Of a stretch of DNA of 64,000 bases, positions 9,695 through 31,181 are shown piece by piece (position 1 is the first letter of the stretch; each line of letters starts with the position of its first letter). The position numbers and the translations under genes are program-made. The notes below the pieces were generated by a model that ran no database searches, was not told the origin of the DNA, and saw only the letters and a list, made by a program, of their open reading frames with translations. The DNA is taken from NCBI GenBank assembly GCA_902617895.1, contig CACMYJ010000003.1:1-64000 (forward strand). Direction: 5' to 3'. This DNA comes from an uncultured Pelagibacteraceae bacterium (GTDB lineage Bacteria > Pseudomonadota > Alphaproteobacteria > Pelagibacterales > Pelagibacteraceae).

Positions 9695-9697
9695 TTA

Positions 9698-11675: not shown

Positions 11676-11676
11676 A

Positions 11677-12234
11677 ATGAAAAAAGTAAGTTTCACAGAA
11701 ATGAAGAATGGAACAAAAGATGACTATCAACTTTTAGAAAAATTAGAAAGTCAGTATGAAAGAAAAACTGCTGATAGAATTTTAAATTATTTAGCCTCTC
11801 AAACTACAACACTTGAGGGCTATCAGATAACAAGATTAGAACACTCATTACAAGCAGCGACAAGGGCTTACAAAAATGGAGAAAATGAGGAAATGGTTGT
11901 AGCTACATTATTACACGATTTAGGAGATGAATTGGCTCCTATGAATCATTCTCAATATGCAGCATCAGTGATTAAACCTTATGTTTCAGAAAAAACTTAC
12001 TGGATTATTTTACATCATGGTTTATTTCAAACTTATTACTCTGCAGAGCACTTAGGAGGGAATAAGAATGCTAGAGAAAAATATAAGGATGCCGAACATT
12101 ACCAAGCAACAATAGATTTTTGTGAAAACTATGATCAAGCATCTTTTGATCCAAATTATAAGTCAATGACTTTAAAAGAATTTGAACCAATGGTTAGGAA
12201 TATCTTTTCTAGAAAACCTTACTACCATCATTAA
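11677..12234 (+). CDS. HD-domain protein resembling PhnZ/TmpB-type diiron oxygenases
   Basis: 185 residues. The metal-binding pattern is His56 in LEHSLQ, His80-Asp81 in LLHDLGD, His91, His113/114 in LHHGLFQ and an acidic residue near 153-158 (YDQASFD). The LEHSLQ start and the 24-residue spacing from His56 to His80 recall PhnZ, an HD-domain mixed-valence diiron oxygenase that cleaves phosphonates. Most proteins of this type are annotated only as predicted HD phosphohydrolases. It begins one base after purF and is followed immediately by the DUF255 gene. No phosphonate gene is nearby, so the substrate is open. Confidence 0.7.
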
Positions 12235-12235
12235 A

Positions 12236-14176: not shown

Positions 14177-14185
14177 ATCATTAAT

Positions 14186-17304: not shown

Positions 17305-18624
17305 ATGGAAAAGATACTTAAAAACTCCTGGGCATTATTCACGGGCATGGGTCTAATTATGATAGCTCATGGCTTTCAAGTTTCTTTACTTGGAGTAAGA
17401 GCTGTTCATGAAAGTTTCAGCTTAACAGCAACCGGCTTTATGTTGTCTGGATATTTTGTAGGCTATTTTATAGGAGCAAAAACAGTTCCAATTTTAGTAT
17501 CAAGAGTTGGTCATATAAGAGTATTTGCTGCTTTTGCATCAATTGCTTCTATCGTTGTTTTAGTACACTCTATAATCATCAATCCTTTTACATGGTTTCT
17601 ATTAAGAATTGCCTCAGGTTTTTCAATGGTATGTTTATATACAATTGCTGAAAGCTGGTTAAACGACCGAGCAAGCAATAAAAACAGAGGAAGTGTTTTA
17701 TCAATTTATATGATCGTTCTTTACGCATCTATGGCGATTGGAATGTTTTTTTTAAACATCAGTAAACCAGAAAATTTTCAGCCATTTATACTTGTTTCTT
17801 TATTCATGTCATTGTCACTTGTTCCAATATTATTAACTAAGAAAAAACCTCCAAAATTTAAAAAAATTATTGGAATGAAAATTAAAGAACTTTATGAAGC
17901 ATCTCCTTTTGGAATGGTAAGTGCACTTTTATGTGGAATTTGTCACTCTGCAATGTTTGCTTTAATTGCTGTTTATGCAGCGTCAATGAATTTTAGTATT
18001 TTTGAAATTTCTTTTGTAACATTTTTAATAGCTATTTCTGGAGCTATTTCGCAATGGCCAATTGGTAAACTATCAGATATTTATGACAGAAGAACAGTTA
18101 CAGTATATTCCACATTTGCTTCGGCTTTCTTTGCGTTATGTGCAATTTTTTCAGTGGGCACGATGCATTTACCTGAAGGTTTAGCAAGCTCGAAGTTTTG
18201 GTTTTATATTTTTACAGGTTTATATGCTTTCTTTAGTCTTCCTATGTTTGCATTAATATTTGCTCACACTAATGATTTTATAGCTAAAGAAAAATTTGTC
18301 GCTGCAGGTGCGGGTTTACAATTTACCTTCGGAATGGGTGCAATTAGTGGACCTTTTTTATGTTCTATGTTTATGGATTTTATAGGAGAGAATGGTTACT
18401 TTATATTTCTAATTATATTTCACTGTTTAATAGGAGCATATGGAATTTACAGGATGAATGTAAGAGAGGTTATTGAAAACCCTGACTCTCAATTCACACC
18501 TCTTCCTACAACAATAACACCTATTGGCTTAGAACTTAATCCAGCGACAGAGCCTATCGAAGACCCAATAAAACCAGTAGAAACCGAAGAAACAGTAATT
18601 GTAGAGAATAACCCTTCCCAATAA
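17305..18624 (+). CDS. MFS transporter (YcaD-like)
   Basis: 439 residues with about twelve hydrophobic segments. It starts with FTGMGLIMIAHGFQVSLLGVRA and has RIASGFSMVCLYTIAESWLND at about 98-118, a signature of the YcaD-like branch of major facilitator carriers. The second half carries the loop GKLSDIYDRR. The last 40 residues form a cytoplasmic Pro/Glu/Thr-rich tail (about 395-439) not needed for transport. The substrate is unknown; two Gfo/Idh/MocA dehydrogenases follow, so sugar- or polyol-like substrates are possible. Confidence 0.82.
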   Translation: MEKILKNSWALFTGMGLIMIAHGFQVSLLGVRAVHESFSLTATGFMLSGYFVGYFIGAKTVPILVSRVGHIRVFAAFASIASIVVLVHSIIINPFTWFLLRIASGFSMVCLYTIAESWLNDRASNKNRGSVLSIYMIVLYASMAIGMFFLNISKPENFQPFILVSLFMSLSLVPILLTKKKPPKFKKIIGMKIKELYEASPFGMVSALLCGICHSAMFALIAVYAASMNFSIFEISFVTFLIAISGAISQWPIGKLSDIYDRRTVTVYSTFASAFFALCAIFSVGTMHLPEGLASSKFWFYIFTGLYAFFSLPMFALIFAHTNDFIAKEKFVAAGAGLQFTFGMGAISGPFLCSMFMDFIGENGYFIFLIIFHCLIGAYGIYRMNVREVIENPDSQFTPLPTTITPIGLELNPATEPIEDPIKPVETEETVIVENNPSQ

Positions 18625-18665
18625 TTAAAATCTTATTTAAAACTTTTATTCTGCTAAAATAGTTT

Positions 18666-19673
18666 ATGACTAAAACTATAAATCTTGGAGTATTGGGTAT
18701 TGATCATGGTCATATCTTCGACATGCTTGATAAGATGCTTAAAGAGGGATGTAGTTGTAATTATTTTTGGACACAAGGTTCTCCGTTAACTTTAAATGAA
18801 TTTAGAAAAAAATATCCTCGAATTAAAAGAGTAGATAATAAAAGTGATATTTTAAATGATGATACAATTGATATGATTTTAATTTCATCCATTCCTAAAG
18901 ATAGGGCAAATCTATCTATAGACGCAATGAAAGCTGGAAAAGATGTCATGGTCGATAAGCCAGGATGTACAACACTTGAGCAACTTAATAATCTAAAACA
19001 AACAGTTAAGGAGACAGGAAAAATTTGGTCAATTAATTTTTCAGAAAGATTTCATGTAGCCGCTGTTACAAAAGCTGAAGAGTTAGTCGCGGAAGGTAAA
19101 ATCGGTAAAGTTAAACAAACAATTGGTACTGGTCCCCACAGGCAAGGTAATTATGAAAGACCAGATTGGTTTTATGATCGTGATAGTTATGGTGGAATAA
19201 TAACAGATATAGGCTCACATCAAATTCACCAATTTTTAGTATTTACAAATTCAAATGAAGCTAAAGTAAATCATGCGTTAGTTGAAAATACAACTAAGAA
19301 AAAATCTGCTGGTTTTCAAGATTTCGGTGAAGTTAATCTTACTGGAAATGGTGGTCATGGATATGTTCGTTTAGACTGGTTTACTCCTGATGCGCTTCGT
19401 ACTTGGGGAGATGGAAGGTTATTTGTCTTGGGTGATAAAGGTTTTATTGAAATTAGAAAATACACAGATTTAGCAAAATCTGAAAAAGGAAATCAACTAT
19501 TTTTGGCAAATAATGATGAAGTTAAACATATTGACTGTTCGAATGAAAAACTTCCCTACTTTGCTAATTTAATTCAAGATGTTTTGAATAGAACTGATAC
19601 TGCTTGTTCGCAAGAACTTACTTACTTATCAATGGAACTAGCAATTAAAGCTCAAGAATTAGCAGAAAAATAA
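18666..19673 (+). CDS. Gfo/Idh/MocA-family oxidoreductase
   Basis: 335 residues. The N-terminal Rossmann part begins LGVLGIDHGHIFDML, with the usual glycine motif altered to GIDHGH. The conserved lysine motif appears as VDKPGCT at about 96-102 in place of the common EKP. The C-terminal domain has GGIITDIGSHQIHQF at about 178-192, with the family's catalytic-type Asp and His. These enzymes use NAD(P) on sugars, inositols or related hydroxyacids; the substrate is not identifiable. Its TAA overlaps the ATG of the next Gfo/Idh gene by one base. Confidence 0.85.
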   Translation: MTKTINLGVLGIDHGHIFDMLDKMLKEGCSCNYFWTQGSPLTLNEFRKKYPRIKRVDNKSDILNDDTIDMILISSIPKDRANLSIDAMKAGKDVMVDKPGCTTLEQLNNLKQTVKETGKIWSINFSERFHVAAVTKAEELVAEGKIGKVKQTIGTGPHRQGNYERPDWFYDRDSYGGIITDIGSHQIHQFLVFTNSNEAKVNHALVENTTKKKSAGFQDFGEVNLTGNGGHGYVRLDWFTPDALRTWGDGRLFVLGDKGFIEIRKYTDLAKSEKGNQLFLANNDEVKHIDCSNEKLPYFANLIQDVLNRTDTACSQELTYLSMELAIKAQELAEK

Positions 19674-20749
19674 TGAAAAAATATCAGGTAGCAATAATAG
19701 GAACTAATATAGGAGCTAAACATTTTGAAGACTTTCAAAAAGTATCAGACCGATTTAGTGTTCATACATTGTGTGGTTTAACAAGAGATGCAATAGATAG
19801 GATCTTGGCGTCAAATAATGATACTAAAATGTCATTAAACTTTGATGATGTATTAAAAATAAAGGAAATTGATATAATTGATATTTGTCTTCCACCCCAT
19901 TTACATTTTTCTGCGTGCAAAAAATCTCTTGAAGCTGGAAAGCATGTAATTTGTGAAAAACCATTGGTTTCAAGTCTTAAAGAAATTGATGAGCTAGAAA
20001 ATATAAGTAAAGAAACAGGAAAGATAATTTTTCCTGTATTCCAATATAGGTATGGATTAGGATTTTCTAAATTTAAGGCACTAATAAAGTCAGGACTTGC
20101 TGGAAAACCTTTAATCGCCTCATTGGAGACTCATTGGAATAGAGGAAAAGATTATTATTCAAAACCTTGGAGAGGTACTTGGGATGGTGAACAAGGTGGG
20201 GCAATATTAAGTCATGCTATACATATTCATGACTTGGTGAGCATGATACTAGGCCCAGTTTCAAATGTATTTGCAAAATTAACAACAAGAGTAAATGATA
20301 TTGAGGTTGAAGACTGTGCGTCTTTATCAATTGAAATGGAAGATGGAACATTGGTCACTAGCTCTATCACCCTTGGTGCAGCAAATGATACCAGTAGACT
20401 AAAATTCTGTTTTGATGGACTGACAGTAGAATCGGGAGCATCTCCAGATAAACCTTATAATCCAGCTGACGATGAATGGGTATTTTTACCAAGAGCTCCT
20501 ATTTCAAAAAGTCAAATTGAAGAGGTATTGTCAAAAGTCGAAAAAACTAAATCATGGTACGCAGGAATGTTTGATGAAGTAGCAAAGAAACTAGATGGCT
20601 CTTCAAGTGATGAGGTAACATTGTCAGATGCTAGAAAATCATTAGAGTTTGTAACTGCTGTTTACCAATCTTCAAGACAAAATATAAATATCAAACTTCC
20701 AATTGATAAAAATAATCCATTCTATAACTCTTGGTTACCAAAAAATTAA
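19673..20749 (+). CDS. Gfo/Idh/MocA-family oxidoreductase
   Basis: 358 residues. The Rossmann start is YQVAIIGTNIGAKHF, the lysine motif is CEKPLV at about 95-100, and the substrate-domain motif is GGAILSHAIHIHDLV at about 181-195. It is a different subfamily from the preceding dehydrogenase (canonical EKP, longer C-terminus). The one-base overlap implies co-translation, so the two may act in sequence on one substrate, for example oxidation then reduction of a sugar-like compound. That pairing is inference. Confidence 0.85.
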   Translation: MKKYQVAIIGTNIGAKHFEDFQKVSDRFSVHTLCGLTRDAIDRILASNNDTKMSLNFDDVLKIKEIDIIDICLPPHLHFSACKKSLEAGKHVICEKPLVSSLKEIDELENISKETGKIIFPVFQYRYGLGFSKFKALIKSGLAGKPLIASLETHWNRGKDYYSKPWRGTWDGEQGGAILSHAIHIHDLVSMILGPVSNVFAKLTTRVNDIEVEDCASLSIEMEDGTLVTSSITLGAANDTSRLKFCFDGLTVESGASPDKPYNPADDEWVFLPRAPISKSQIEEVLSKVEKTKSWYAGMFDEVAKKLDGSSSDEVTLSDARKSLEFVTAVYQSSRQNINIKLPIDKNNPFYNSWLPKN

Positions 20750-20834
20750 AAGAATAAAGAAAATGTGAATAAAGTAGCTCTGATGAAGGTTGTTCTAATT
20801 AAAAAATATATTAATGTAAGTAGTATTAAAAAGT

Positions 20835-21320
20835 ATGCCTTCATTTGATGTTATAAGTAAAATCAATTATCAAGAGTTTGATAATGCTCTTGCTAATTGT
20901 TTAAGGGAAATTGCTAACCGATACGATTTTAAGGGGCTTAATATTTCTATTGAAAGAAAAGATAAAATAATAACTACACTAGCTCCAGATGAATTAAAAT
21001 TAAAACAAGTAAATGAATTGTTACAAGTTCACCTTATAAGAAGAAAAGTAGATCCAAGAGTATTAATTATTAAAAATTCAGAGGGTGCAGCTGGTGGAAC
21101 TATAAGGCAGGTTAGTGAATTAGCTGAGGGTATAAGCCAAGAAAATGCTAAGAAGATTATTGCTGATGTAAAAAAACTAAAACTTAAAATCCAAATTAAA
21201 ATTCAAGGAGAAGAATTAAGAGCTCAAGGAAAGAAAAGAGACGATCTTCAAGAAGCAATATCTGCCATAGAAGCAATAGATATAGGGCTTCCGATTGAAT
21301 TTATTAATTTTAGAGATTAA
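20835..21320 (+). CDS. YajQ-family nucleotide-binding protein (DUF520)
   Basis: 161 residues. The N-terminus PSFDVISKINYQEFDNAL, then NRYDFKG at about 33-39 and the C-terminal DDLQEAI..IDIGLPIEFINFRD, identify the YajQ family. These small two-domain proteins bind RNA or nucleotides, and a Xanthomonas member binds cyclic di-GMP. The role in this organism is unknown. It is separated from the dehydrogenase by 85 bases of AT-rich sequence in which I see no other feature. Confidence 0.92.
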   Translation: MPSFDVISKINYQEFDNALANCLREIANRYDFKGLNISIERKDKIITTLAPDELKLKQVNELLQVHLIRRKVDPRVLIIKNSEGAAGGTIRQVSELAEGISQENAKKIIADVKKLKLKIQIKIQGEELRAQGKKRDDLQEAISAIEAIDIGLPIEFINFRD

Positions 21321-21326
21321 TTAAAC

Positions 21327-21449
21327 ATGATTGAAATTATTTTAGGTATATTCGTAATTGTTGTAGTGGGTTTTTATTTATTTAGACCTACTTCAAAACA
21401 AGAAGAGAAAGATTTGAAATCTAAAAATAATTGGCGAGGTGGATTTTAA
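21327..21449 (+). CDS. 40-residue single-span membrane microprotein, unknown function
   Basis: An ATG at 21327 opens 40 codons ending TAA at 21447-21449, with the next gene's ATG at 21450. The protein has one hydrophobic helix (residues 3-19, IEIILGIFVIVVVGFYL), then a charged tail (KQEEKDLKSK) ending NNWRGGF. It starts six bases after the YajQ gene and abuts the secreted lyase-like gene exactly, which supports a real, co-translated gene. No function can be assigned; it could be a small inner-membrane partner of either neighbour. Confidence 0.6.
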   Translation: MIEIILGIFVIVVVGFYLFRPTSKQEEKDLKSKNNWRGGF

Positions 21450-22334
21450 ATGGAAAAAATTTTTGGGATTGTTGTTCTAATCTTTTTTACATGTAATTTA
21501 GGTTATACAGAGCCTGTTACAATTAAAAAAACTAAGTGGCATCACATGGATATCAAAGAGCATTTTGAAATAGTCGATAAGAATGTTCGTGCTGGTAAAT
21601 CAGCTCAAAAGTTTGAAATTAGACATGGTGAATGTAAAAAACAAGATTGTAAATGGGGTGCTCAAAGAACAGAAAGACATTTAAAAAAACTTCATTACTC
21701 AAGTAAAAAATTTAAAGAACCAGTATTTTATGCTTTGAGTATCTATATACCCGAAGATTTTGGTTACGATTTCGTAGCATCAAAGATGTCTTTGTTTCAA
21801 GCTAAAATGAAAGGTGTAGATATGCCATTATGGATGGTTTCTACACAGGGTTCAGGCTTTCAAGTGAGATTAGGTCACTATAAGAGATGCCATGGATTCT
21901 CTTTTAAAAAAGGTAGTTGGAATGATTTTATAGTTAAAACTAATTATAGTAGAGAAAGAATTAAAGGTGAAAAATATTTTGAGCTATGGTGGAATGGAGA
22001 ACAGATTAATGAGTGCACCCATTATATTCCATTTGTAAAAAGCAAACATATTAAAGAGTCCAAAAGCCATGGGTGGAGCAGTAACAAACAACAAATTAAT
22101 ATGAGATATGGTATTTATAAATTTAGAGTTGGTGATTACTTATCTCAAATAAATAGAAATAAACCAAAGGGAATGAAGACCATGACTCAACCAAGTGGTC
22201 AAAAAAATATAATAAAACCTTTTAAATATAAATGGGAAAATAAAATTCCAACAACCGTAATGCTATTTGATGAAGTGAGATTTGGTAAATCCTATGATGA
22301 AGTAGATATAAATAAGAACAAACCAGTTGATTAA
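21450..22334 (+). CDS. secreted protein resembling heparin-lyase-I-type polysaccharide lyases
   Basis: 294 residues with a signal peptide (residues 1-20, MEKIFGIVVLIFFTCNLGYT). The mature part has the layout I associate with the bacterial polysaccharide lyase family of heparin lyase I: KFEIRHGEC, then AQRTER, FYALSIYIPEDFGYD at about 91-105, a Gly-Ser-Trp-Asn-Asp stretch near 157-161, and W-W-N-G-E near 180-184, ending MRYGIYKFR. Cysteines (CKKQDCKW, C near 149, C near 190) may form disulfides. A jelly-roll sugar-binding or lyase protein is likely, but substrate and activity are not proven. Confidence 0.6.
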   Translation: MEKIFGIVVLIFFTCNLGYTEPVTIKKTKWHHMDIKEHFEIVDKNVRAGKSAQKFEIRHGECKKQDCKWGAQRTERHLKKLHYSSKKFKEPVFYALSIYIPEDFGYDFVASKMSLFQAKMKGVDMPLWMVSTQGSGFQVRLGHYKRCHGFSFKKGSWNDFIVKTNYSRERIKGEKYFELWWNGEQINECTHYIPFVKSKHIKESKSHGWSSNKQQINMRYGIYKFRVGDYLSQINRNKPKGMKTMTQPSGQKNIIKPFKYKWENKIPTTVMLFDEVRFGKSYDEVDINKNKPVD

Positions 22335-22340
22335 TAAATT

Positions 22341-22425
22341 AAAAAATCTTTTAAGTTTATGGTTCTGTGTTGTAGGATTTTTTAGAGAAACTAGTCCTGA
22401 AACTTGAACAAGTTGAGATAAATTA
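22341..22425 (+). repeat. repeat module copy 1: degenerate signal-peptide start plus TTGAGATAAAT tail
   Basis: AAAAAATCTTTTAAG, GGTTCTGTGTTGTAGGATTTTTTAG and then CAAGTTGAGATAAATTAGTTG line up with the module at 23901-23990 in the same order and spacing. The first part resembles the coding start of the secreted genes here (ATGAAAAAACTTTTAGGG...) but is decayed. TTGAGATAAAT lies at 22413-22423. It occupies the gap after the lyase-like gene. Confidence 0.6.
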
Positions 22426-22495
22426 GTTGAAAATCTTATTGATTGGGAATTTATTGTGTCTATATTATTTTAATTTATTAATGAAAGGAAAAACT

Positions 22496-22753
22496 ATGAA
22501 CTTTGTTGGAACAACAACATATGAAGGAACTAAAAAAGATGCAGATGAATTATACAGTATATTTAAAGATGATCTTGCAAAATGTACTTCATCATTTGAA
22601 TGGGCACACATTCGTGAAGGTAAAATGATTTTTATTGCAAATGTCACTGATGAAGAAAAATTTTATGCCTTATTTGAAGATCAAAGATCTAAAGACTGGA
22701 ACGCAAAGTTTAATGCTAAAGATGAAGCTTGGAAACTTGAGAAAATAATGTAA
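22496..22753 (+). CDS. conserved small protein, unknown function
   Basis: 85 residues from the ATG at 22496, which has AGGAA upstream (22485-22490). A longer frame from 22427 would start in repeat-flanking sequence and lacks such a site. The protein begins NFVGTTTYEGTKKDADELY and contains SSFEWAHIREGKMIFIANVTDEEKF. It is soluble, without cysteine pairs, and has the size and alternating pattern of a ferredoxin-like alpha/beta fold; that fold is a guess. It is followed by a hairpin terminator and stands alone between repeat elements. Confidence 0.7.
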   Translation: MNFVGTTTYEGTKKDADELYSIFKDDLAKCTSSFEWAHIREGKMIFIANVTDEEKFYALFEDQRSKDWNAKFNAKDEAWKLEKIM

Positions 22754-22778
22754 CTAGTTTACAAACTAGAACTTTTTG
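22754..22778 (+). terminator. intrinsic terminator after the 85-residue gene
   Basis: CTAGTTT at 22754-22760 and AAACTAG at 22763-22769 form a perfect seven-base stem directly after the stop codon, followed by ACTTTTT at 22771-22777. It has the form of a Rho-independent terminator, although the stem is only moderately GC-rich. Confidence 0.6.
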
Positions 22779-22802
22779 AGGTAAAATAAGAAAAGTGAAG
22801 GT

Positions 22803-22871
22803 GTGAACAAAGAAAACGCAAGTAAACTCTGGAAAATTATTCAGGAAGCTGGCGATTATTTACGGGGCTAG
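22803..22871 (+). pseudogene. truncated duplicate of the 75-residue gene at 24002
   Basis: Bases 22804-22863 are identical to 24003-24062, the first 20 codons of the intact gene. The start codon is GTG here and ATG in the intact copy. Directly after the identity ends the frame runs into CGG GGC TAG, so the product would be only 22 residues. The upstream flank differs from that of the intact copy. This reads as a recent partial duplication or a recombination scar rather than a working gene. Confidence 0.85.
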
Positions 22872-23061
22872 TGGTACACACTACCTCACACGACTTCACA
22901 CTAGTTATGCGGATATTTTAATTTTCACCAAAAATAAATCGCTTAAAGACTCATCAATTTAAGCAAAAAACTATACCGCAAACTATACCAAGTTGAGATA
23001 AATCAAATAGCCATTTTCAAAGCAAATAGACTCATGGTCCATGATTTGGTAATCTTGGATT
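22872..23061. other. intergenic scar-like region with hairpin
   Basis: No gene of plausible length is seen between the truncated duplicate and the hydrolase. The first 40 bases (GGTACACACTACCTCACACG and onward) are richer in C than their surroundings. GCTTAAA at 22941-22947 pairs with TTTAAGC at 22958-22964. Repeat module copy 2 follows (22965-23007), and the last 50 bases lead into the ATG of the secreted hydrolase and should contain its promoter and ribosome site. The base composition contrast hints at a foreign insertion remnant. Confidence 0.4.
22965..23007 (+). repeat. repeat module copy 2: double ACTATACC plus TTGAGATAAAT tail
   Basis: AACTATACCGCAAACTATACC followed by AAGTTGAGATAAATCAAAT matches the tail of the module at 23950-23990 (ACTATACCGCAGACTATACC, then TTGAGATAAATCAAGG). 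The octamer ACTATACC occurs twice in each. Here the tail precedes a full secreted gene (23062), whereas in copies 1 and 3 it follows a truncated signal-peptide start. Confidence 0.75.
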
Positions 23062-23901
23062 ATGAAAAAACTCTTAGGGATCGTGTTTCTTGGTTTGTTG
23101 TTGAGTGGAAACTCTAACGCTTGTGAAAAAGAGGATTTCATAAAATATATATCAGCAGGTAAAAACAAATGTATAGCAATTTTAAATTTAGGAAAAATTG
23201 AAAAGAGTAAAAAAAACTTAATAGTATTTCTTCATGGTGATGGTAGTCCTAATTCTCCAAGGCCAGGAATACCCAAAAAAAGTCAAATTAGATTTGCAAA
23301 AGAATTAATAAACGATGATAACAATATTTTTCTTTTTGCAAGACCTGGTTACTTTATTAGAGAAAGAGGCAGTAGTGAAGAGGATAGATATTCATCAGGA
23401 CCTCGTAACGCTATAAAGAGTACAGTAGTAAATTATGATTGGAAAAATTTTCAAATACTAGTGCCTGCATTACAAAATCTTAAAAAATATTATAAACCAA
23501 AAAAACTAATTTTAATTGGTCATTCTGGAGGAGCTTATCAGGGAGGTACTATTCATGGAAAAGTACCAGGATTAGTTGATATGAATATTTTGATCTCTTG
23601 CCCGTGTGACTGGGAAATTAGAAAAAAACTAAGCAACGGTAAAAAATGGGAAACCAAATCTCAATTGAAAGAATTAAAAAAAAACTCACCAAGTTTCAAT
23701 TATAAAGATATAGATTTAAAATCTCTCAATATATTAATTGTTGGAAAAGATGATAAAAATACAGCTCCAGGAGTTTCAAAATATTATTATGATTTACTTA
23801 AAAAGAAAAAACTACAAGTTAAGTTACATATTATTGATGGAGGTCACGGATTAAGGTCTATGCCAACAATTGGATCTATAATTAAAGAATATATAAACTA
23901 A
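23062..23901 (+). CDS. secreted alpha/beta hydrolase
   Basis: 279 residues. A signal peptide (MKKLLGIVFLGLLLSGNSNA, cleavage after Ala20) is followed by an alpha/beta-hydrolase core. LIVFLHGDG at 53-61 carries the HG oxyanion motif, GHSGG has the nucleophile Ser155, the acid is Asp230 or Asp231 in VGKDD, and His262 lies in DGGHGL. Substrates could be esters or peptides outside the cytoplasm; nothing pins this down. The signal-peptide DNA is 31/36 identical to a fragment that overlaps the gene's own stop codon, linking it to the repeat modules of this region. Confidence 0.8.
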   Translation: MKKLLGIVFLGLLLSGNSNACEKEDFIKYISAGKNKCIAILNLGKIEKSKKNLIVFLHGDGSPNSPRPGIPKKSQIRFAKELINDDNNIFLFARPGYFIRERGSSEEDRYSSGPRNAIKSTVVNYDWKNFQILVPALQNLKKYYKPKKLILIGHSGGAYQGGTIHGKVPGLVDMNILISCPCDWEIRKKLSNGKKWETKSQLKELKKNSPSFNYKDIDLKSLNILIVGKDDKNTAPGVSKYYYDLLKKKKLQVKLHIIDGGHGLRSMPTIGSIIKEYIN

Positions 23902-23990
23902 TGAAAAAACTTTTAGGGATCGTGGTTCTGGGTTATAGGATTTTATAGGATACTATACCGCAGACTATACCAGATTGAGATAAATCAAGG
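23901..23990 (+). repeat. repeat module copy 3: signal-peptide start fragment plus TTGAGATAAAT tail
   Basis: Beginning at the last base of the hydrolase stop codon, ATGAAAAAACTTTTAGGGAT and the next 16 bases match the hydrolase's own start at 31 of 36 positions. The frame gives only 15 residues (MKKLLGIVVLGYRIL) before TAG at 23946-23948. The double ACTATACC and TTGAGATAAAT (23975-23985) then follow. It lies directly upstream of the intact 75-residue gene. Confidence 0.75.
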
Positions 23991-24001
23991 TTTGAAGTCG
24001 T

Positions 24002-24229
24002 ATGAACAAAGAAAACGCAAGTAAACTCTGGAAAATTATTCAGGAAGCTGGCGATTATTTACAAGGACAACTTCCAGATCATCCTAATCATCCTAAAGGC
24101 AGAAATCCTTATGCACACGTCGCAATTTGCGTAAAGAGTAAATTTAATGCAAGTTATAAAGATATTGAGGATGAAAAATTTGATGAAATAGTTAATTACA
24201 TAAATTTTCTTAAAGAAAATCCTAGCTAA
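24002..24229 (+). CDS. 75-residue protein, unknown function
   Basis: Starts MNKENASKLWKIIQEAGDYL and continues with a His/Pro-rich turn (LPDHPNHPKGRNPYAHV at about 24-40), then VCVK-like and acidic helical parts (YKDIEDEKFDEIVNYINFL). Soluble and without a signal peptide. The His/Pro turn could bind a metal, but this is speculation. The first 60 coding bases exist as a second exact copy at 22804-22863. It is preceded by repeat module copy 3 and ends one base before the convergent threonine aldolase. Confidence 0.75.
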   Translation: MNKENASKLWKIIQEAGDYLQGQLPDHPNHPKGRNPYAHVAICVKSKFNASYKDIEDEKFDEIVNYINFLKENPS

Positions 24230-24230
24230 A

Positions 24231-25277
24231 TTAAGATTTAATTATATTTAAAAACGCTTCTACATCATCTGGATGAGTATTCCAGGCAGCAACTAATCTA
24301 ACAGCTTTATCTTCCCACTCATCATCGTTAATTTTGTAACCATGCGAATTAAATTGATCAATTATATTTTTTGGTATTTTGACAAAAACTTCATTTGCAT
24401 CTGTTGGGTAAGCTAATTCAATATTTTTGTGTTTCAGTAAACCTTGGCTTAATTTTTTCCCCATAGCATTTGCATGCTTTGCATTTTTTAACCAAACCTC
24501 ATTTGAGATATAAGCATCTAATTGAGCTGATACAAAACGCATCTTTGATAGTAAATGCCCTGCTCTTTTCATTAAAAAAGCTAAATTTCCAACCAACTCT
24601 GGTTTAAAAAAAATAATGGCTTCTGCTGCTAGGCATCCATTTTTAGTTGCTCCAAATGATAGTACATCAATTCCAGACTTCCATGTCATTTCTGCTGGAG
24701 TACAGTTTAATGAAACTAATGCATTTGCAAATCTTGCACCATCCATATGAATATTTAGATCATGTTTATGAGTAATCTCTGATATTTTTTTTATTTCATC
24801 TAAATTGTAAGCAACACCTGTTTCACACAATTGAGTAATACTTACTGATGAAGGTTGGGTATGATGTACCACACCTTTTCCAGAGATGTTTCTATCTAGT
24901 TCTTCTGCTGTTATTTTTCCATTATTACCGTCCAGATTAACTAACTTTGCACCTCCAGTATAAAATTCTGGAGCCCCACATTCATCTACATTTATATGGG
25001 AAAGTCTATGGCAATAGATATTTCCAAAAGAGGGTGTCATCGTTGATAAGGCTAAAGCATTAGCGGCTGTTCCTGAGGCTGTAGGAAAAACTACAACTTC
25101 TTTCTCAAATATTTCTGAAAATTTATTTTGTAAGTTTTTTGACAGCTCATCATTACCATATGGAGTTTTGTCTTCCTCATTATCTTTAAGAAGTGCATTT
25201 AAGACCTCTGGACATGCGCCTGTAACGTTATCTGAAGCAAATTTTACTCTTTCTCTTTTTGTTTTTATCTTTGTCAC
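24231..25277 (-). CDS. ltaE: low-specificity threonine aldolase (beta-eliminating lyase family)
   Basis: 348 residues from a GTG, two bases after the amidinotransferase stop. Pyridoxal-phosphate enzyme splitting threonine and related hydroxyamino acids to glycine and an aldehyde. The PLP lysine is Lys212 in LSFGATKNG. FASDNVTGACPEV at the N-terminus, FPTASGTAANALAL at 64-77 and NIHMDGARFANAL at about 175-187 are family motifs. In a glycine-dependent lineage such as SAR11 it could supply glycine. Phenylserine aldolase-like specificities cannot be excluded. Confidence 0.88.
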   Translation of the reverse strand: MTKIKTKRERVKFASDNVTGACPEVLNALLKDNEEDKTPYGNDELSKNLQNKFSEIFEKEVVVFPTASGTAANALALSTMTPSFGNIYCHRLSHINVDECGAPEFYTGGAKLVNLDGNNGKITAEELDRNISGKGVVHHTQPSSVSITQLCETGVAYNLDEIKKISEITHKHDLNIHMDGARFANALVSLNCTPAEMTWKSGIDVLSFGATKNGCLAAEAIIFFKPELVGNLAFLMKRAGHLLSKMRFVSAQLDAYISNEVWLKNAKHANAMGKKLSQGLLKHKNIELAYPTDANEVFVKIPKNIIDQFNSHGYKINDDEWEDKAVRLVAAWNTHPDDVEAFLNIIKS

Positions 25278-25279
25278 AA

Positions 25280-26395
25280 TTATTGTTTTGGAAAATAATC
25301 TTTTAATTCACCTTCTCTATAAACATCTGCTGTACAACAATGCAATCCACCGCCAAACGCATAAGCGTCTCTAAGCTCAACAGGAACAACCTCCATTCCT
25401 AATTTATCTAATTGTTCTGCTTGATATACTTCACTTTTTTCTACACATACAGTTTTAGGATCTAAAACTAAAACATTCATTGATAACCATGTTGAAGAGT
25501 AACATAGAGGTGGTGGTTCATTATGTGCAGGTTGAGCACTATCAATAATTTCCCAACCGTTATTTTCAAATAATTTTCTTTGCTCTTTAGGAAGTCTTCT
25601 TTGAGGATTATTAATTATTATACCCTCCTTGATAGGTGTAAAAGTTGCATCTATATGAATTGGATAAGGATCGCCTGGAAAATTTACTGCATGAACCCTG
25701 TGATCTTTATAATGTCTTTTTAACCAATCAATTCCTTTTAAATTTGTTGTAAAACCATGTTGTACTACTAAATCTTTACCAAACCTTAGAACGTCAGCAG
25801 CATCAAATAATGGCTCCTCTTCAGTGGTTACAAAATATTTATTTTCTGTCCATTCCAGTCTTTTTTGAATTCCTATTTTATCTGATAAGTAATCTTCTCT
25901 GTAATCCTCATCTGTTAATCTTGGTTTAGGAGCAGATTCGTGTCTCATATTTGGATCTGAATTATAATATTGTTTTAAAAGTGGTCGGTAGCATAAATAT
26001 TCAAACCATCGGCAACGATAACTCATCGTAGCCTCTAAAATTTCATTACCGACAGTTAACAAAACATCTCTCGGTGGCATACATCCAAACATCGTCTCCG
26101 CTTGCCAATCAGGTGTAGATGTTTTTTGATTAAAATCAATTGGGTCTGGTCTATCAACTTTAATCCCTCTTTTTTTTAATATATTTGAGAAATTATCTAA
26201 AAGCTGATTTGCTTTATCTACAGTATCTTTAGTTCTTGGACCAAATTTTCCTCTCATATCGCTGTCTTCAGGAACTTTGGCGTCAAGTGCTGGCTCAGGG
26301 GCAGGTATACAAGTGCCATCTGCTTTACCTACTATTACATGTTTCAATGGATCCCATTCATTCCAACTATTAACAATTACTTTTTCATTTATCAT
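25280..26395 (-). CDS. glycine amidinotransferase-like enzyme
   Basis: 371 residues of the amidinotransferase (AGAT) family. The likely nucleophile is the first Cys in GGGLHCCTADVYR near residue 354; the supporting catalytic-type residues are Asp in LFDAADVLRFGKD and His in PIHIDATF. VNSWNEWDPLKHVIVG at the N-terminus is characteristic. AGAT transfers the amidino group of arginine to glycine, but relatives use other acceptors. It lies between a threonine aldolase, which makes glycine, and an EamA exporter, all on one strand with gaps of 1-2 bases. Confidence 0.85.
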   Translation of the reverse strand: MINEKVIVNSWNEWDPLKHVIVGKADGTCIPAPEPALDAKVPEDSDMRGKFGPRTKDTVDKANQLLDNFSNILKKRGIKVDRPDPIDFNQKTSTPDWQAETMFGCMPPRDVLLTVGNEILEATMSYRCRWFEYLCYRPLLKQYYNSDPNMRHESAPKPRLTDEDYREDYLSDKIGIQKRLEWTENKYFVTTEEEPLFDAADVLRFGKDLVVQHGFTTNLKGIDWLKRHYKDHRVHAVNFPGDPYPIHIDATFTPIKEGIIINNPQRRLPKEQRKLFENNGWEIIDSAQPAHNEPPPLCYSSTWLSMNVLVLDPKTVCVEKSEVYQAEQLDKLGMEVVPVELRDAYAFGGGLHCCTADVYREGELKDYFPKQ

Positions 26396-26396
26396 T

Positions 26397-27302
26397 TTAA
26401 TTTAAACCTATAAATCTTCTATTAGACTGCATAATAAGGCTATAATAAAAAATTGACATAAAGATAAAAAACCCACCAATAATAGTATTAGTGGATGGGA
26501 CTTCATTAATTCCCATCCATGGTAACCACACCCAGAATATTCCACCTATAACCTCAGTCAGTGAGAGTAAAGTTAGATCAGCTGCTGGAATATTTTTTGA
26601 TCCAATTGAATACAAAATCAAACCCATACATACTAGAGTTCCATGAGTAGCAAATAAGGCTTCATTTTTTCCAGTAGATAAAAAATTAGCATCATTCGAC
26701 ATAAGTATTACAGCAGAAAATATGAAACAGAACAATCCCGCAAAGGCTACAGTAGTAAATTTTGGGGTTTCTTTTCTCCATCTAAGTGAAACAGAAAAAA
26801 TTGAGAAACCTACTGCAGAAATAAGTCCAAATACAAGCCCTGGCAATGAATTTTTACCAGAATTGTCAAAAGCCATTATACATATACCCGCTGCTGCAAC
26901 TATAATCGCAATCCATACTGTTAATGAAATTTTTTCTTTTAAAAACAAAAATCCTAATAATGCTGTTATAAATGGCATTGCCGCAAGACAAAGTAGAGTG
27001 ATAGCTGCTGTCGTATTAGTAATTGACCATATAAATGTTATCATTGCGGTACCAAGACCGATACCTCCAATTAAACCCGATATACCAATCTTAAAATAAT
27101 TTTTATAAAACTCTTTTCCCTCCTCAAGGAACAAATACATATTAAGCAAAAGAAAAATAACTATTCCTCTTGTAAATAAATATTGCCAAGGAACTGTTTC
27201 TGGCTGATCGATGTGTCTTACAACATATGGACCAAATGACCAAAAAATACCAGCAATTAATACCATTGGGATGGCTACTTTAGGATTTTTTAAGTTTAGC
27301 AT
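26397..27302 (-). CDS. EamA-domain (DMT superfamily) transporter
   Basis: 301 residues with about ten hydrophobic helices in two EamA repeats. FTRGIVIFLLLNMYL, TTAAITLLCLAAMPFITALLGFLFLKE and the second-repeat ADLTLLSLTEVIGGIFWVWLPW are the usual family blocks. First gene of a minus-strand run with the amidinotransferase and threonine aldolase, one base apart from the former, so it may carry a guanidino or amino acid compound. That substrate link is inferred from position alone. Confidence 0.83.
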   Translation of the reverse strand: MLNLKNPKVAIPMVLIAGIFWSFGPYVVRHIDQPETVPWQYLFTRGIVIFLLLNMYLFLEEGKEFYKNYFKIGISGLIGGIGLGTAMITFIWSITNTTAAITLLCLAAMPFITALLGFLFLKEKISLTVWIAIIVAAAGICIMAFDNSGKNSLPGLVFGLISAVGFSIFSVSLRWRKETPKFTTVAFAGLFCFIFSAVILMSNDANFLSTGKNEALFATHGTLVCMGLILYSIGSKNIPAADLTLLSLTEVIGGIFWVWLPWMGINEVPSTNTIIGGFFIFMSIFYYSLIMQSNRRFIGLN

Positions 27303-27380
27303 GTGCTATTTTTTTATTTAAGAAGTATGAAAATATAAATATAAATTTGTATAATAACAATCAAATAAATACTCAAATTA

Positions 27381-27776
27381 ATGGATATTAATATTTTAAA
27401 AATAGCTTCTGATACCAAAAACAATAAACATATTCATAACTTTACTCACTCGATGAAATATAAAAGTCAAATTTGTGGTGATGAGATTGAAATTTTTTTA
27501 ATTATTAAAGACAATGTTATAAAAGATTTTTCGTATCAGTCTCAGTCTTGCATTTATTGTAATGCATCTGCGAATTTAGCTACAAAAAATTTTAAGAAAA
27601 AAAGTAAAGAAAAAATAAAAAATTTTTTAAAATTATTAGATCGGTTTAATGATAAAAAAAATATATCATTTCCAAGTGAATGGAAAGAGTTTAAAAAAAT
27701 TTTTGATAAAAAAAATTATGCACGGAAAGAATGTTTAACTCTTCCAATAAAAGCTTTAAAAAAGGTAATACAATAA
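27381..27776 (+). CDS. IscU/SufU-like iron-sulfur scaffold protein
   Basis: 131 residues. Three conserved cysteine positions of the IscU/SufU fold are seen: Cys32 in SQICGDE, Cys57 in QSQSCIYC (with an additional Cys60) and Cys118 in ARKECLTLP. CGDEIEIFLIIKDNVIKDFSYQ matches the scaffold's beta-sheet part. In SufU these cysteines hold zinc or a nascent cluster. The protein is lysine-rich and divergent, so it may be a dedicated sulfur or cluster carrier rather than the main scaffold. It abuts an HPP-family membrane protein. Confidence 0.72.
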   Translation: MDINILKIASDTKNNKHIHNFTHSMKYKSQICGDEIEIFLIIKDNVIKDFSYQSQSCIYCNASANLATKNFKKKSKEKIKNFLKLLDRFNDKKNISFPSEWKEFKKIFDKKNYARKECLTLPIKALKKVIQ

Positions 27777-28238
27777 ATGAACAAAGATAAAATTATTAAA
27801 TCCTTTTTAGCATTGATTTTTACAACTATAACAATTGGTATACTCACTTTATTGACTTATAAAACTAATTTTGGACTTTTTTTGATTGCATCATTTGGAT
27901 CCTCAATGGTTCTTTTATACGGTTACCCAGAAAGTCCATTTGCTAAACCTAAAAATATATTATTTGGTCACCTAGTAACTTCAGCAATTGGAATTCTATT
28001 TTATAATTTTATCCCATTGCCAATTTATATATCGATACCTTTAGCGGTAGGTCTTGGTGTTGGACTGATGATTTTGCTAGATGTAACCCACCCTCCAGCT
28101 GGAGGAAATCCTATTATAGTCATATTGGGCTCAGTATCGTTTGATTATTTATTCTTCCCAATATTAACCGGATGTTTGATTATAATAGTCTTTGGAATTA
28201 TTCTGAATAAATTCGTTGCTAAAAAGAAATACCCCTAA
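27777..28238 (+). CDS. HPP family membrane protein
   Basis: 153 residues with four or five transmembrane helices. The signature VTHPPAGGNP at about 103-112 gives the family its name. FGSSMVLLYGYPESPFAKPKNILFGH at about 40-65 is the other conserved block. HPP proteins of some cyanobacteria and plastids act in nitrite uptake, but function elsewhere is unknown. The ATG follows the stop of the IscU-like gene with no spacing, indicating a two-gene unit. Confidence 0.85.
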   Translation: MNKDKIIKSFLALIFTTITIGILTLLTYKTNFGLFLIASFGSSMVLLYGYPESPFAKPKNILFGHLVTSAIGILFYNFIPLPIYISIPLAVGLGVGLMILLDVTHPPAGGNPIIVILGSVSFDYLFFPILTGCLIIIVFGIILNKFVAKKKYP

Positions 28239-28253
28239 TCAACTACTATTCGT

Positions 28254-28283
28254 TTGATTGATGTTCTAATTTTATGCTACACT
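28254..28283 (+). promoter_or_regulatory. probable promoter of formate dehydrogenase
   Basis: TTGATT at 28254-28259 and TACACT at 28278-28283 are separated by 18 bases, with TATG just before the second hexamer. A 5' leader of about 50 bases follows and includes AGGAGA at 28329-28334 just before the ATG at 28338, one of the clearest ribosome sites in the window. This fits strong expression of the gene. Confidence 0.5.
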
Positions 28284-28337
28284 TTCATAAGAAAATATCT
28301 ATAGAGAGATTTTAAAACATAAATATTAGGAGAAAAA

Positions 28338-29537
28338 ATGAAAGTACTTTGCGTGTTATATGATGATCCTAAAGGTGGTATGCCAAAAGCTTACCCTTTA
28401 TCAGATCTTCCAAAATTAGAAAAATATCCTGATGGAATGACTTTACCTAGTCCAAAAGGTAGGGATTTCACACCTGGAGAATTATTAGGATGTGTATCTG
28501 GTGAATTAGGATTAAGAAAATTTTTAGAGAGCAATGGTCATGAGTTAGTTGTAACTAATAGTAAAGATGGAGAAGGGTGCGAGGCTGATAAACATATAGT
28601 CGATGCAGATATAGTTATTTCTCAACCATTCTTTCCTTATTATTTAACAAAAGAAAAGATTGAGAAAGCAAAAAACTTGAAAATGGCAATAACTGCAGGA
28701 ATTGGATCAGATCACGTAGATTTACAAGCAGCAATGGATCATAAAATTGATGTCGTAGAAGTTACTTTCTGTAACTCAAGATCAGTTGCTGAGCATATAG
28801 TAATGATGATAGTTTCACTTGTTAGAGATTACCATAACCAACATCGAATCGTTAATGAAGGTGGATGGAATATTGCAGATGCAGTTCAAAGATCTTACGA
28901 TGTTGAGGGAATGCACATTGGAACTGTTGCAGCTGGAAGAATTGGGTTAGATGCATTAAGAAAAATGAAACCATTTGATGTACATCTTCATTATTTTGAT
29001 AGACATAGATTACCTGAGTCAGTTGAAAAAGAGTTAAATCTTACTTTTCATGAAACCGTAGAGTCTATGGTTAAAGTATGTGATGTTGTTACAATTAACT
29101 GCCCTCTTCATCCTGAAACAGAAAATTTATTTGATGATGAAATGATATCTAAAATGAAAAAAGGTGCATATATTGTAAATACAGCAAGAGGTAAAATTTG
29201 TAATAGAGATGCAATAGCAAAAGCCTTAAAGAGTGGGCAATTAAGTGGATATGCGGGAGATGTATGGTTTCCTCAACCAGCTCCAAACGACCACGTGTGG
29301 AGAACAATGCCAAACCATGGAATGACACCTCATACTTCTGGAACATCACTATCTGCTCAAGCTAGATATGCTGATGGTGTAAGAGAAATCTTGGAATGTT
29401 TCTTCGAAGGTAGTGAAATACGTAACCAATACTTGATTGTTAAAGATGGACAATTAGCTGGAATGGGTGCGCATTCTTATAGTAAAGGAAGCGCTACCGG
29501 TGGTTCAGAAGAAGCGGCAAAATATCAAAAAAAATAG
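28338..29537 (+). CDS. fdh: NAD-dependent formate dehydrogenase
   Basis: 399 residues, almost exactly the length of the Pseudomonas sp. 101 enzyme. Oxidises formate to CO2 with NAD. Arg284, Gln313, His332 and the NAD-selecting Asp221 (YFDRHRLP) fall at the same numbers as in that enzyme, and the PHTSGTSLSAQ motif is present. The glycine loop here reads VAAGRIG. It belongs to the D-2-hydroxyacid dehydrogenase superfamily and is metal-free. In SAR11 it would be the last energy-yielding step of methyl and one-carbon oxidation. A clear AGGAGA site precedes the ATG. Confidence 0.95.
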   Translation: MKVLCVLYDDPKGGMPKAYPLSDLPKLEKYPDGMTLPSPKGRDFTPGELLGCVSGELGLRKFLESNGHELVVTNSKDGEGCEADKHIVDADIVISQPFFPYYLTKEKIEKAKNLKMAITAGIGSDHVDLQAAMDHKIDVVEVTFCNSRSVAEHIVMMIVSLVRDYHNQHRIVNEGGWNIADAVQRSYDVEGMHIGTVAAGRIGLDALRKMKPFDVHLHYFDRHRLPESVEKELNLTFHETVESMVKVCDVVTINCPLHPETENLFDDEMISKMKKGAYIVNTARGKICNRDAIAKALKSGQLSGYAGDVWFPQPAPNDHVWRTMPNHGMTPHTSGTSLSAQARYADGVREILECFFEGSEIRNQYLIVKDGQLAGMGAHSYSKGSATGGSEEAAKYQKK

Positions 29538-29555
29538 AGTTTTAAATAGAAATTA

Positions 29556-29593
29556 TTAAAGGTAAGCTATCATTAATTAGATAGCTACCTTTA
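29556..29593 (+). promoter_or_regulatory. long hairpin touching the msrA start codon
   Basis: TTAAAGGTAAGCTATC (29556-29571) pairs with GATAGCTACCTTTAA (29580-29594) with one bulged A and an eight-base loop. The right arm runs into the ATG of msrA at 29594. There is no T-run outside the stem on the plus strand. It could end the fdh message, or hold the msrA ribosome site in a closed state, since any Shine-Dalgarno sequence would lie inside the stem. Confidence 0.6.
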
Positions 29594-30172
29594 ATGAAAA
29601 AATTTTTATCAATAATTTTCATTCTTATTTCTTCAACGAGTTTTGCAAATTCACCAAATTTTGAAAAAGCCTATTTTGCTGGAGGATGCTTTTGGTGTAT
29701 GGAAGAGTCTTTTGAAAATATTCTTGGTGTTTCAAAAGTTATCTCTGGCTATTCAGGTGGCACTACCGAAAATCCAACTTATAAAGAAGTTACATATGGA
29801 AACACAGGTCATTTTGAGGTTATTGAAGTCATATATATTCCAGAAGTAGTTAGCTATAAAAAACTCTTAGAAGAATTCTGGGTAAATATTGATCCATTTG
29901 ATGCTGCAGGACAATTTTGTGACAAGGGATATAGTTATAGATCAGTGGCATTTTATCAAAATGATGAGCAAAAAAACCTAATAGAAAATAGTATTAAGGA
30001 AATAGAGAAAAAATTTAAAAAAAAAGTAGTAACTTATGTAAGAAAATTTGATAAATTTTACATGGCAGAGGCTGTTCATCAAGATTATTACCAAATAAAT
30101 TTTCTTAATTACTTAAGATATAAAAAAGGATGTAGACGCGAAGCAATATTAAATAGTATTTGGGGGTCTTAA
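29594..30172 (+). CDS. msrA: peptide methionine-S-sulfoxide reductase, secreted
   Basis: 192 residues. Catalytic Cys32 lies in GGCFWCMEESF, followed by VISGYSGGTTENPTYKEV and HFEVIEV, the standard MsrA core. A signal peptide at 1-18 (MKKFLSIIFILISSTSFA) sends it to the periplasm, unlike the usual cytoplasmic enzyme. It repairs oxidised methionine in exported proteins. A resolving cysteine is available in QFCDKGYSYRS or near the C-terminus (KKGC). The next gene starts one base after its stop. Confidence 0.92.
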   Translation: MKKFLSIIFILISSTSFANSPNFEKAYFAGGCFWCMEESFENILGVSKVISGYSGGTTENPTYKEVTYGNTGHFEVIEVIYIPEVVSYKKLLEEFWVNIDPFDAAGQFCDKGYSYRSVAFYQNDEQKNLIENSIKEIEKKFKKKVVTYVRKFDKFYMAEAVHQDYYQINFLNYLRYKKGCRREAILNSIWGS

Positions 30173-30173
30173 A

Positions 30174-31181
30174 ATGTCTGTGGTTAGTAAATACGTATCT
30201 TTAAAAAATTATATTCCAACTGGATTACCAAAAGAAACAGATTTTGAAATAAAATCAAAAGAAATTTCAATGAATGATGAAAAAAATGTCTTAGTGTCAA
30301 ATTCATGGATATCAGTTGATCCATATATGCGTGCAAGAATGACTGAGAGAAAAAATTATAAACCACCATTTAAAATCGGCGAGGAAATGGAAGGGTATGC
30401 AATCGGTAAAGTAGAACTCTCAAATGATAAAGATTTTAGTGTTGGAGATTTAGTATTTAGCAGTCTTGGTATGAGAGATAAATTTGTTTGTAGTTCTGAT
30501 GAACTAAAGAAACTAAAACCAATTGATATGCCTATACAGTCGTACTTAGGTCCACTTGGAATGACAGGTCATACAGCTTATATAGGTCTGTTAAAACACG
30601 GTGAATTAAAACCTGGACAGACAGTTTTAGTCTCCTCTGCTGGAGGGAGTGTTGGATCCACAGTTTGTCAAATTGCAAAAAATCTTGGTTGTAAAGTTAT
30701 TGCAAGCACAGGGTCTGATGAAAAAGTTGATTGGTTAAAAAATGAATTAAAAGTTGATCATGCTTTTAATTATAAGAAAGTAGAAAACCTTGTGTTACAT
30801 TTTAAGGAAATTTGTCCTGATGGTTTTGATCTTTATTTCGATAATGTTGGTGGAGATTTTTTAGAGTCCGCTATTTTCCAAATGAAAACATATGGTCGTA
30901 TTGTGATTTGTGGAAGAATTTCTCAAATGAATGCAACAAATCCTGGATCTGGTTTGAAAAATATGGCTTATGTTTTAGTAAAAAGACTTACAATTAAAGG
31001 ATTTCTTATTTTTGATCACGATAATGAAAGAGAGCCATTTGAAACTGAAATGTCGAAATGGTTGGCGGATGGTAAAATAAAATTTAGAGAAACTATCTAC
31101 GAAGGAATAGAGAATGCTCCAAAGTCATTTATTGATTTATTAAACGGTAAAAATATTGGCAAAATGCTTGTCAAAATTTAG
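30174..31181 (+). CDS. NADP-dependent medium-chain oxidoreductase (CurA/prostaglandin-reductase type)
   Basis: 335 residues. Zinc-independent medium-chain dehydrogenase: SWISVDPYMRARM at about 42-54, LGPLGMTGHTAYIGL at about 124-138, and the nucleotide loop VSSAGGSVGSTVCQIAK at about 152-168. The family reduces alpha,beta-unsaturated aldehydes and ketones with NADPH, so detoxification of lipid-peroxide products is likely. It follows the oxidative-repair gene msrA with a one-base gap, which agrees with such a role. Confidence 0.87.
   Translation: MSVVSKYVSLKNYIPTGLPKETDFEIKSKEISMNDEKNVLVSNSWISVDPYMRARMTERKNYKPPFKIGEEMEGYAIGKVELSNDKDFSVGDLVFSSLGMRDKFVCSSDELKKLKPIDMPIQSYLGPLGMTGHTAYIGLLKHGELKPGQTVLVSSAGGSVGSTVCQIAKNLGCKVIASTGSDEKVDWLKNELKVDHAFNYKKVENLVLHFKEICPDGFDLYFDNVGGDFLESAIFQMKTYGRIVICGRISQMNATNPGSGLKNMAYVLVKRLTIKGFLIFDHDNEREPFETEMSKWLADGKIKFRETIYEGIENAPKSFIDLLNGKNIGKMLVKI

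Follow-up and report, generated by a model that had tools for sequence, protein, structure and literature searches.

Site-specific gene cassettes, probably mobile, and a recombining leader sequence in the genomes of SAR11 bacteria

Integron gene cassettes are small units without a recombinase, which hold one to a few genes of varied kind, are stacked at a fixed site and carry attC hairpins. Elements of the lambda and SXT type, which depend on tyrosine integrases, have a core at both ends, arm repeats, a target that is rebuilt on insertion and secondary sites, and SXT-type elements integrate at the 5′ end of prfC. Tycheposons are described as cargo islands of 4-200 kb with a tyrosine recombinase, located at tRNA genes of streamlined aquatic bacteria (PMC10872708). 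Bacteria of the SAR11 group, whose cells rank with the most abundant of the ocean, have very small genomes, yet variable gene content; a 2007 survey reported no attC sites or integron signature at their hypervariable regions (PMC2217521), and the route by which genes enter these genomes has been left open. Here we analysed a stretch of 64,000 nucleotides (contig CACMYJ010000003.1, positions 1 to 64,000; hereafter the window) from an uncultured Pelagibacteraceae bacterium (G000, a 1.17-Mb assembly, 84% complete), in which a gene cassette interrupts a small conserved gene, and compared it with related genomes. We consider it probable, at roughly 80%, that the cassette belongs to a family of mobile gene cassettes which insert site-specifically at a few exact SAR11 sites and whose exported cargo is joined at a common leader. 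Such a family, with known targets, ends and cargo, makes gene entry into SAR11 a testable question. In the open-licence literature we found neither SAR11 cassettes of this kind described nor a leader that SAR11 genes have in common and recombine at.

The cassette occupies 22864-24062 (all features given here lie on the forward strand) and is inserted near codon 20 of a gene which we call NKENAS, from its first residues ('NKENAS'). The decisive repeat, overlooked in the preliminary description of this locus, which had been made from the letters alone, is that 22801-22863 equals 24000-24062 at 62 of 63 positions, the second copy being the start of the 75-amino-acid (aa) NKENAS gene at 24002-24229. 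The left copy of the target site (22801-22863) is a stub, the displaced 5′ end of the gene, with its reading frame interrupted by a TAG, and the right copy (24000-24062) is the new 5′ end brought by the cassette; each holds the putative crossover core GATTATTT, at 22854-22861 and 24053-24060. Between them lie the left arm (22864-22969; 10-bp phased repeats with a conserved AAATAAATCGCTTAAAGACTCATCAATTTAA block behind them), the left tail (22970-23006; a tandem ACTATACC pair and GAGATAAATCAAA) and the cargo, a secreted alpha/beta hydrolase of Peptidase_S9-like type with the shared leader (23062-23901; PF00326, E 9e-7). The right end consists of a leader fragment (23901-23936; a 15-codon open reading frame, MKKLLGIVVLGYRIL), the arm motif TTATAGGATTTTATAGGATA (23933-23952), a similar form of which is present at 30 of 36 NKENAS-cassette right ends, and the right tail (23952-23989), which in the matched-ends test described below is of the ACTATACC type like the left one. 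The possibility that the right arm always includes a leader fragment was rejected, since 8 of the 36 right ends have one. Insertion has left the original NKENAS start upstream as a dead stub and the right end of the cassette carries a replacement start, so that the gene remains whole. Rfam gave no match across 18000-28000.

A query of 23885-24062 matched 110 of 151 genomes of the genus, several of them with more than one copy per contig. The stretches surrounding 40 of these loci followed one plan, in which upstream genes, a displaced NKENAS start of ~60 nt, a conserved left arm, a tail and cargo are followed by a second tail and a fresh NKENAS start fused to the remainder of the gene. Cassette-free loci (e.g. 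L097 and L098) have a single intact NKENAS gene and no left arm, and stacks of two or three cassettes are present in L062, L079 and L081. Most of the genomes searched are fragmented and incomplete, which might invite the view that the arrangement is an assembly artefact or comes from chimeric single-cell genomes; the hits, however, span many independent single-cell and metagenome assemblies, and cassettes are present in the single-contig genomes G408 and G384, so that we find this view hardly credible. Left arm and tail together were present in 74 of 399 genus genomes. When 297 genomes of the order were searched with a left-end profile (R1, built from 54 of 56 left ends), 29 matched at E <= 1e-19, one of them from another genus, and 63 at the looser E <= 0.01, many of the latter matches being partial. 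All 21 named stretches with the left-arm pattern were Pelagibacteraceae, Pelagibacterales or Ca. Pelagibacter (SAR11).

Among 147 genomes of the order, the NKENAS gene was detected in 105, of which 16 have a displaced stub as well, ending at residue 20-26. Conversely, a copy of the NKENAS start (at least 42 of 63 positions) precedes 66 of 80 left-end hits, the others being one at a contig edge (L064), three right-end tails only, three truncated hits (L081@6832, L202 and L208) and seven located elsewhere (L068, L163, L174@5001, L177, L182, L185 and L211). A second copy of the gene start follows 68 of 77 left ends within the stretches examined. Identity at the third base of identical residues fell from 0.862 over the first 19 codons to 0.618 beyond them (3916 pairs from 89 genes, not independent of one another); per codon it was 1.00 and 1.00 at D and Y and then 0.57, 0.49 and 0.37, placing the drop between GATTAT and TTA. 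Such a drop after the core is expected if elements keep replacing the gene start, although some codons before the core are as variable as those after it (L 0.56, G 0.67, I 0.69). The NKENAS protein had no Pfam or NCBIfam match and no PDB sequence match, and its AlphaFold model (predicted local distance difference test 91) gave no fold match at E <= 0.001; against PHROG there were five weak hints (E 0.06-0.15), two of them anti-repressors.

The TTGAGATAAAT tail proved to consist of two ~9-nt units in tandem, with GAGATAAA behind them. This unit differs from cassette to cassette and is the same at both ends of one, exactly so in 29 of 34 and at 8 of 9 positions or better in 33 of 34, compared with means of 3.7 and 6.1 and maxima of 12 and 15 in 10,000 shufflings. 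These counts exclude the single-tail units L265 and L275; an earlier test over 111 loci, which included them, gave 31/36. When one element per tail type was kept, 15 of 20 tails matched (shuffled maximum 6). Four of the five inexact pairs differ by one base, and the fifth, L081, spans a nested fragment. The left arms carry 10-bp phased repeats, with a self-identity of 0.51 at shift 10 and 0.39 at shift 20, and of 0.18-0.29 at the remaining shifts from 4 to 21 (65 arms). From this layout we infer that the tails are arm-type binding sites of an integrase, and this would explain why the two tails of one cassette agree and those of different cassettes have diverged.

Furthermore, cassettes of this layout are not confined to NKENAS. 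One element stands at two places, in G107 at NKENAS and in G149 between purK and an SRAP gene, the copies being 98.5% identical over 1843 nt. The joined flanks of the G149 insertion align without interruption in 16 of 201 genomes at 73-83% identity (that is, from base 41 or earlier to base 298 or later), and in G149 itself as two separate pieces; the empty site reads CTATTATTTG and has ATTATTT in common with the NKENAS core. A second target is tRNA-Leu(UAA), where six cassettes repeat the promoter together with the tRNA 5′ half and have their breakpoint in the anticodon loop; the inner tail units are identical in 6/6, with six different units, and a seventh pair is without tails. Of 201 genomes of the genus, 50 matched the left arm of this class at E <= 1e-3 and 31 of those reached E <= 1e-17, as counted by arm sequence alone and not by an adjoining tRNA. 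The third target, probably the recA terminator, is a hairpin that separates recA from alaS, and there a 22-bp repeat flanks a cassette in G408, a genome which also carries an NKENAS cassette. The recA-alaS hairpin and the tRNA-Leu anticodon stem-loop are inverted repeats about a short centre; tyrosine integrases prefer inverted repeats around a short centre. At all three targets a copy of the target site with the common core is present at both cassette ends (63 nt at NKENAS, the tRNA 5′ half at tRNA-Leu, 22 bp at recA-alaS), and the spacing from core to tail motif is 141-158 nt in the left arm and 76-111 nt on the right side (five elements, three targets). A further target may be the 3′ end of a Peptidase_M24 gene, next to which L318, L319 and L322 have a leader fragment and a TTATAGGATT arm.

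We argued that, if there were no site-specific recombination and the locus were a hot spot of natural transformation and homologous allele exchange, the 63-nt repeat would be a by-product of tandem duplication. The failure to find a dedicated recombinase, described below, would suit this, and homologous exchange seems to occur as well, at the leader. The same element, end to end, is nevertheless present at an unrelated site where relatives show no interruption, and unrelated targets share one end layout with similar spacing, which makes a pure hot spot unlikely. A cassette consists of a core, a left arm of ~140-160 nt with a tandem-repeat tail, cargo, a right arm with matching tail, a further 76-111 nt and a second core, and cassettes of this one build are located at NKENAS, in the tRNA-Leu(UAA) anticodon loop, in the recA-alaS hairpin and at secondary sites, and stack in tandem.

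The window itself holds such a stack of two cassettes. Its positions 21450-22863 match the cargo and right end of the cassette at L199, whose own first cargo frame is broken, at 93.6% identity over 1416 nt from the leader ATG onward, which is why we recognise an older cassette without left end in front of the newer intact one with the hydrolase. The older cassette adjoins an upstream 40-codon gene from its leader on. Its cargo includes a polysaccharide-lyase-like exported gene with a diverged leader (21450-22334), which has no Pfam match of its own in a Pfam scan and is similar (blastp 23-24%, E 3e-8 and 4e-8) to two leader genes of L176 that belong to Pfam Polysacc_lyase. This gene is followed by a right-end remnant (22341-22426) made of a leader-like stretch, a TTATAGG-like arm and a tail, all within the stretch in common with L199, by a gene of 85 aa (22496-22753), an 85-aa relative of which is L199 cargo, and by the right-end tail of the older cassette (22753-22789), which precedes the displaced stub like other right-end tails. 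In the same genome, at about 26800-30300 of G000:C4 (L324), a further leader gene with a tail and cargo lies near tRNA-Leu(GAG), and this cargo resembles, by its first ~25 residues, cargo of the NKENAS cassette L164 and of the tRNA-Leu cassette L321.

The repeats noticed in the preliminary description were found where it had placed them: the tail at 22970-23006 matches 23952-23988 at 34/37 and 22390-22426 at 28/37, the leader copy at 23901 agrees with the beginning of the hydrolase gene at 31/36, and its decayed copy, 22341-22385 against 23904-23948, matches at 34/45. The best matches in 500 Markov shuffles of 4.5 kb were 25/36 (leader), 24/37 (tail) and 30/45, so all repeats lie above chance except the fourth tail at 22753-22789, which had been missed and matches at 24/37. 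The idea of a tail core dispersed through the genome did not hold, as exact TTGAGATAAATYA matches number four in G000, three of them at this locus.

The elements span 177-8588 nt with a median of 2.1 kb (68 left ends with a following gene-start copy, of which two belong to units without cargo and one, in L081, is a nested count). The 133 representatives of the cargo (open reading frames of at least 80 aa) include restriction-modification genes and Z1, AIPR, GmrSD, Schlafen and caspase proteins, to which PADLOC (73 of the 133 representatives) added type III and IIG restriction models; other cargo includes trypsins, dienelactone-hydrolase and Peptidase_S9 enzymes, polysaccharide lyases, a TRAP transporter and TypA. 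Housekeeping-like genes were also seen in cassettes, namely TypA with a DEAD-box helicase (L077 6987-10327) and DUF520/YajQ (L209 6738-7220). Pilin-like proteins with the near-identical start MK..GFTLIELLVVVAIIGILA, perhaps a second shared leader, were encountered in L329 (7828-8915, two in tandem), in L333 (reverse, 11332-11811) and in L174 cargo.

The most likely mechanism is a tyrosine-type integrase which would be supplied in trans by a phage or other element and would recombine the core. Matches to PF00589 were obtained in 110 of 151 and in 28 of 35 genomes, mostly to one protein of ~310-325 aa; those listed lie on other contigs than the cassette loci or far away (G010), most of the genomes being incomplete. 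In pelagiphage HTVC105P the 5′ half of tRNA-Leu(UAA) with the anticodon stem-loop (L335 4684-4728) stands right behind the integrase gene, the product of which is a PF00589 protein, and this stretch is likely an attP at the target of one cassette class; therefore enzymes with that target probably exist in SAR11 phages. The same order was found, by annotation and match position, in HTVC109P and S35-C6. An integrase-bearing island in L330 (G402, about 9515-14759) was also observed at a tRNA-Met 3′ end; it has a 54-nt repeat, holds a leader gene or lies close to one, and is laid out differently from the cassettes.

These phages raise the question whether the cassettes are phage satellites, integrated and packaged by pelagiphages with the same targets, which would be a special case of site-specific insertion. 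HTVC105P has the same tRNA-Leu(UAA) target on the same 5′-half side as the tRNA-Leu cassettes, with HTVC109P and S35-C6 in the same order, but its attP-like region has no tails in the 400 nt examined, the patterns used retrieved no cassette ends from phage or viral collections, and no phage structural genes were among the Pfam families listed for the cargo; we regard satellites as possible, though on balance doubtful. A match to L340 in the viral search was discarded as a GC-rich chance hit.

Several observations weigh against site-specific insertion by an integrase acting in trans, the absence of tails and ends from phages just mentioned among them. The main gap is that searches with PF00589, PF00239 and Pfam on the cargo found no dedicated recombinase: no Phage_integrase was among the Pfam families listed for the 133 cargo representatives (89 of 117 entries), G408 and G384 have one PF00589 match each, a tyrosine recombinase of ~325 aa far from the cassettes, and a serine recombinase (PF00239) was found in 1 of 50 genomes. 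Neither excision nor transfer was observed. The core copies of the G149 purK-side insertion show small changes, and the cargo-less single-tail units L182, L202, L265 and L275 could be produced by homologous recombination from tail to tail.

We then consider the leader, one start sequence common to unrelated exported proteins, at which gene contexts have been recombined. Sixty-three leader-like open reading frames of at least 60 aa, selected by DNA, fell into 42 families of mature proteins (blastp E <= 1e-3; one of the 42, L322@2730, is a right-end fragment and no gene), between which identity was 0.826 for leader DNA vs 0.322 for mature DNA. A member with at most 4/32 mismatches was present in 31 of the 42 families, and with at most one mismatch in 22. 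At 430 of 476 matched residues the codon was the leader's own, against an expectation of 0.373 from window codon usage (53 open reading frames, selected by peptide), and the leader contains codons rare here, GGG (0.073), ATC (0.098), GTG (0.067) and CTG (0.026). Since some of the loci behind these counts had been retrieved by their leader matches, we also counted loci fetched by element ends only, where the leader's own codon stood at 168 of 194. A TTATAGGATTTTATAGGA-like motif follows 28 of 42 short leader starts. In its +2 frame the leader DNA (23062-23100 and 23901-23936) reads EKT(F/L)RDRGSGL-like peptides at the fragment.

As proposed in the preliminary description, the leader recombines between genes. 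L315, L317, L327 and L222 have their upstream and first ~30 coding nt in common and then diverge, another upstream is in common to L188, L194 and L208, and such an upstream stretch in front of unrelated bodies is ~270-300 nt long. Conversely, the body of the window hydrolase is present behind three unrelated upstreams (L063, L188 and L222; 87-100% per 30 nt over the first 240 nt), L222 combining the upstream of L315 with this body. The switch at the leader was clean in 8 of 10 pairs compared, L063/L199 and L165/L194 being less clear. Short homologous recombination between leader copies may thus swap protein bodies behind a common predicted export signal. The leader pattern at up to 3 mismatches occurs at 11 places in 4 of 7 genomes, a few copies each (the reversed pattern at none; no match in the single-contig genomes G012 and G082), therefore it is not the general leader of SAR11 exported proteins that had been supposed. 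It and the tail are also present outside this locus; confinement to the locus had been named as an outcome that would tell against the idea of a recombining leader.

It had further been proposed that leader and tail form one module which moves to genes and confers export. Leader DNA common to 42 families with unrelated mature parts, and contexts that recombine at it, would accord with this, yet the tail is the end repeat of cassettes with every kind of cargo (restriction systems, the TRAP transporter and TypA included), and leader-like sequence, by the right-end count given above, is not tied to it. Among 20 stretches found through leader matches a strict scan gave one tail and a closer reading more, mainly at tRNA-Leu cassettes. 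We consequently hold a single leader-tail module to be improbable; the earlier idea was largely right in treating the leader as a recombining joint between unrelated proteins. Such a joint would show concretely how recombination at one signal-peptide start gives rise to new exported proteins.

Combined together, these observations allow us to suggest, tentatively and with less than even confidence, an integron-like system of gene capture in SAR11, in which recombinase-less cassettes with end-matched, diversifying 'barcodes' would be inserted by trans-acting integrases into a few host genes, which are rebuilt, and a single conserved signal-peptide start within the cassettes would serve as a universal joint for making new secreted proteins out of unrelated bodies. 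The SAR11 cassettes resemble integron cassettes in each of the general traits named at the outset, but they enter host gene or tRNA targets and rebuild them, no integron integrase was seen near them, and in place of attC hairpins, for which no search was made, they have long arms with matched tails. They also share the core at both ends, the arm repeats, the rebuilt target and the secondary sites with lambda- and SXT-type elements, from which they differ in that no integrase was found in them, in their very small size, in their use of at least three targets and in arm repeats that are specific to each element. Pelagiphage HTVC105P shares the tRNA-Leu(UAA) target and 5′ half with one cassette class; it is, unlike the cassettes, a full phage with its own integrase. 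Tycheposons (PMC10872708) are likewise cargo islands of streamlined aquatic bacteria at tRNA genes; compared with them, the SAR11 cassettes are 0.2-8.6 kb long, had no recombinase found and have one class alone at a tRNA gene, their other targets being a protein gene and a terminator-like hairpin.

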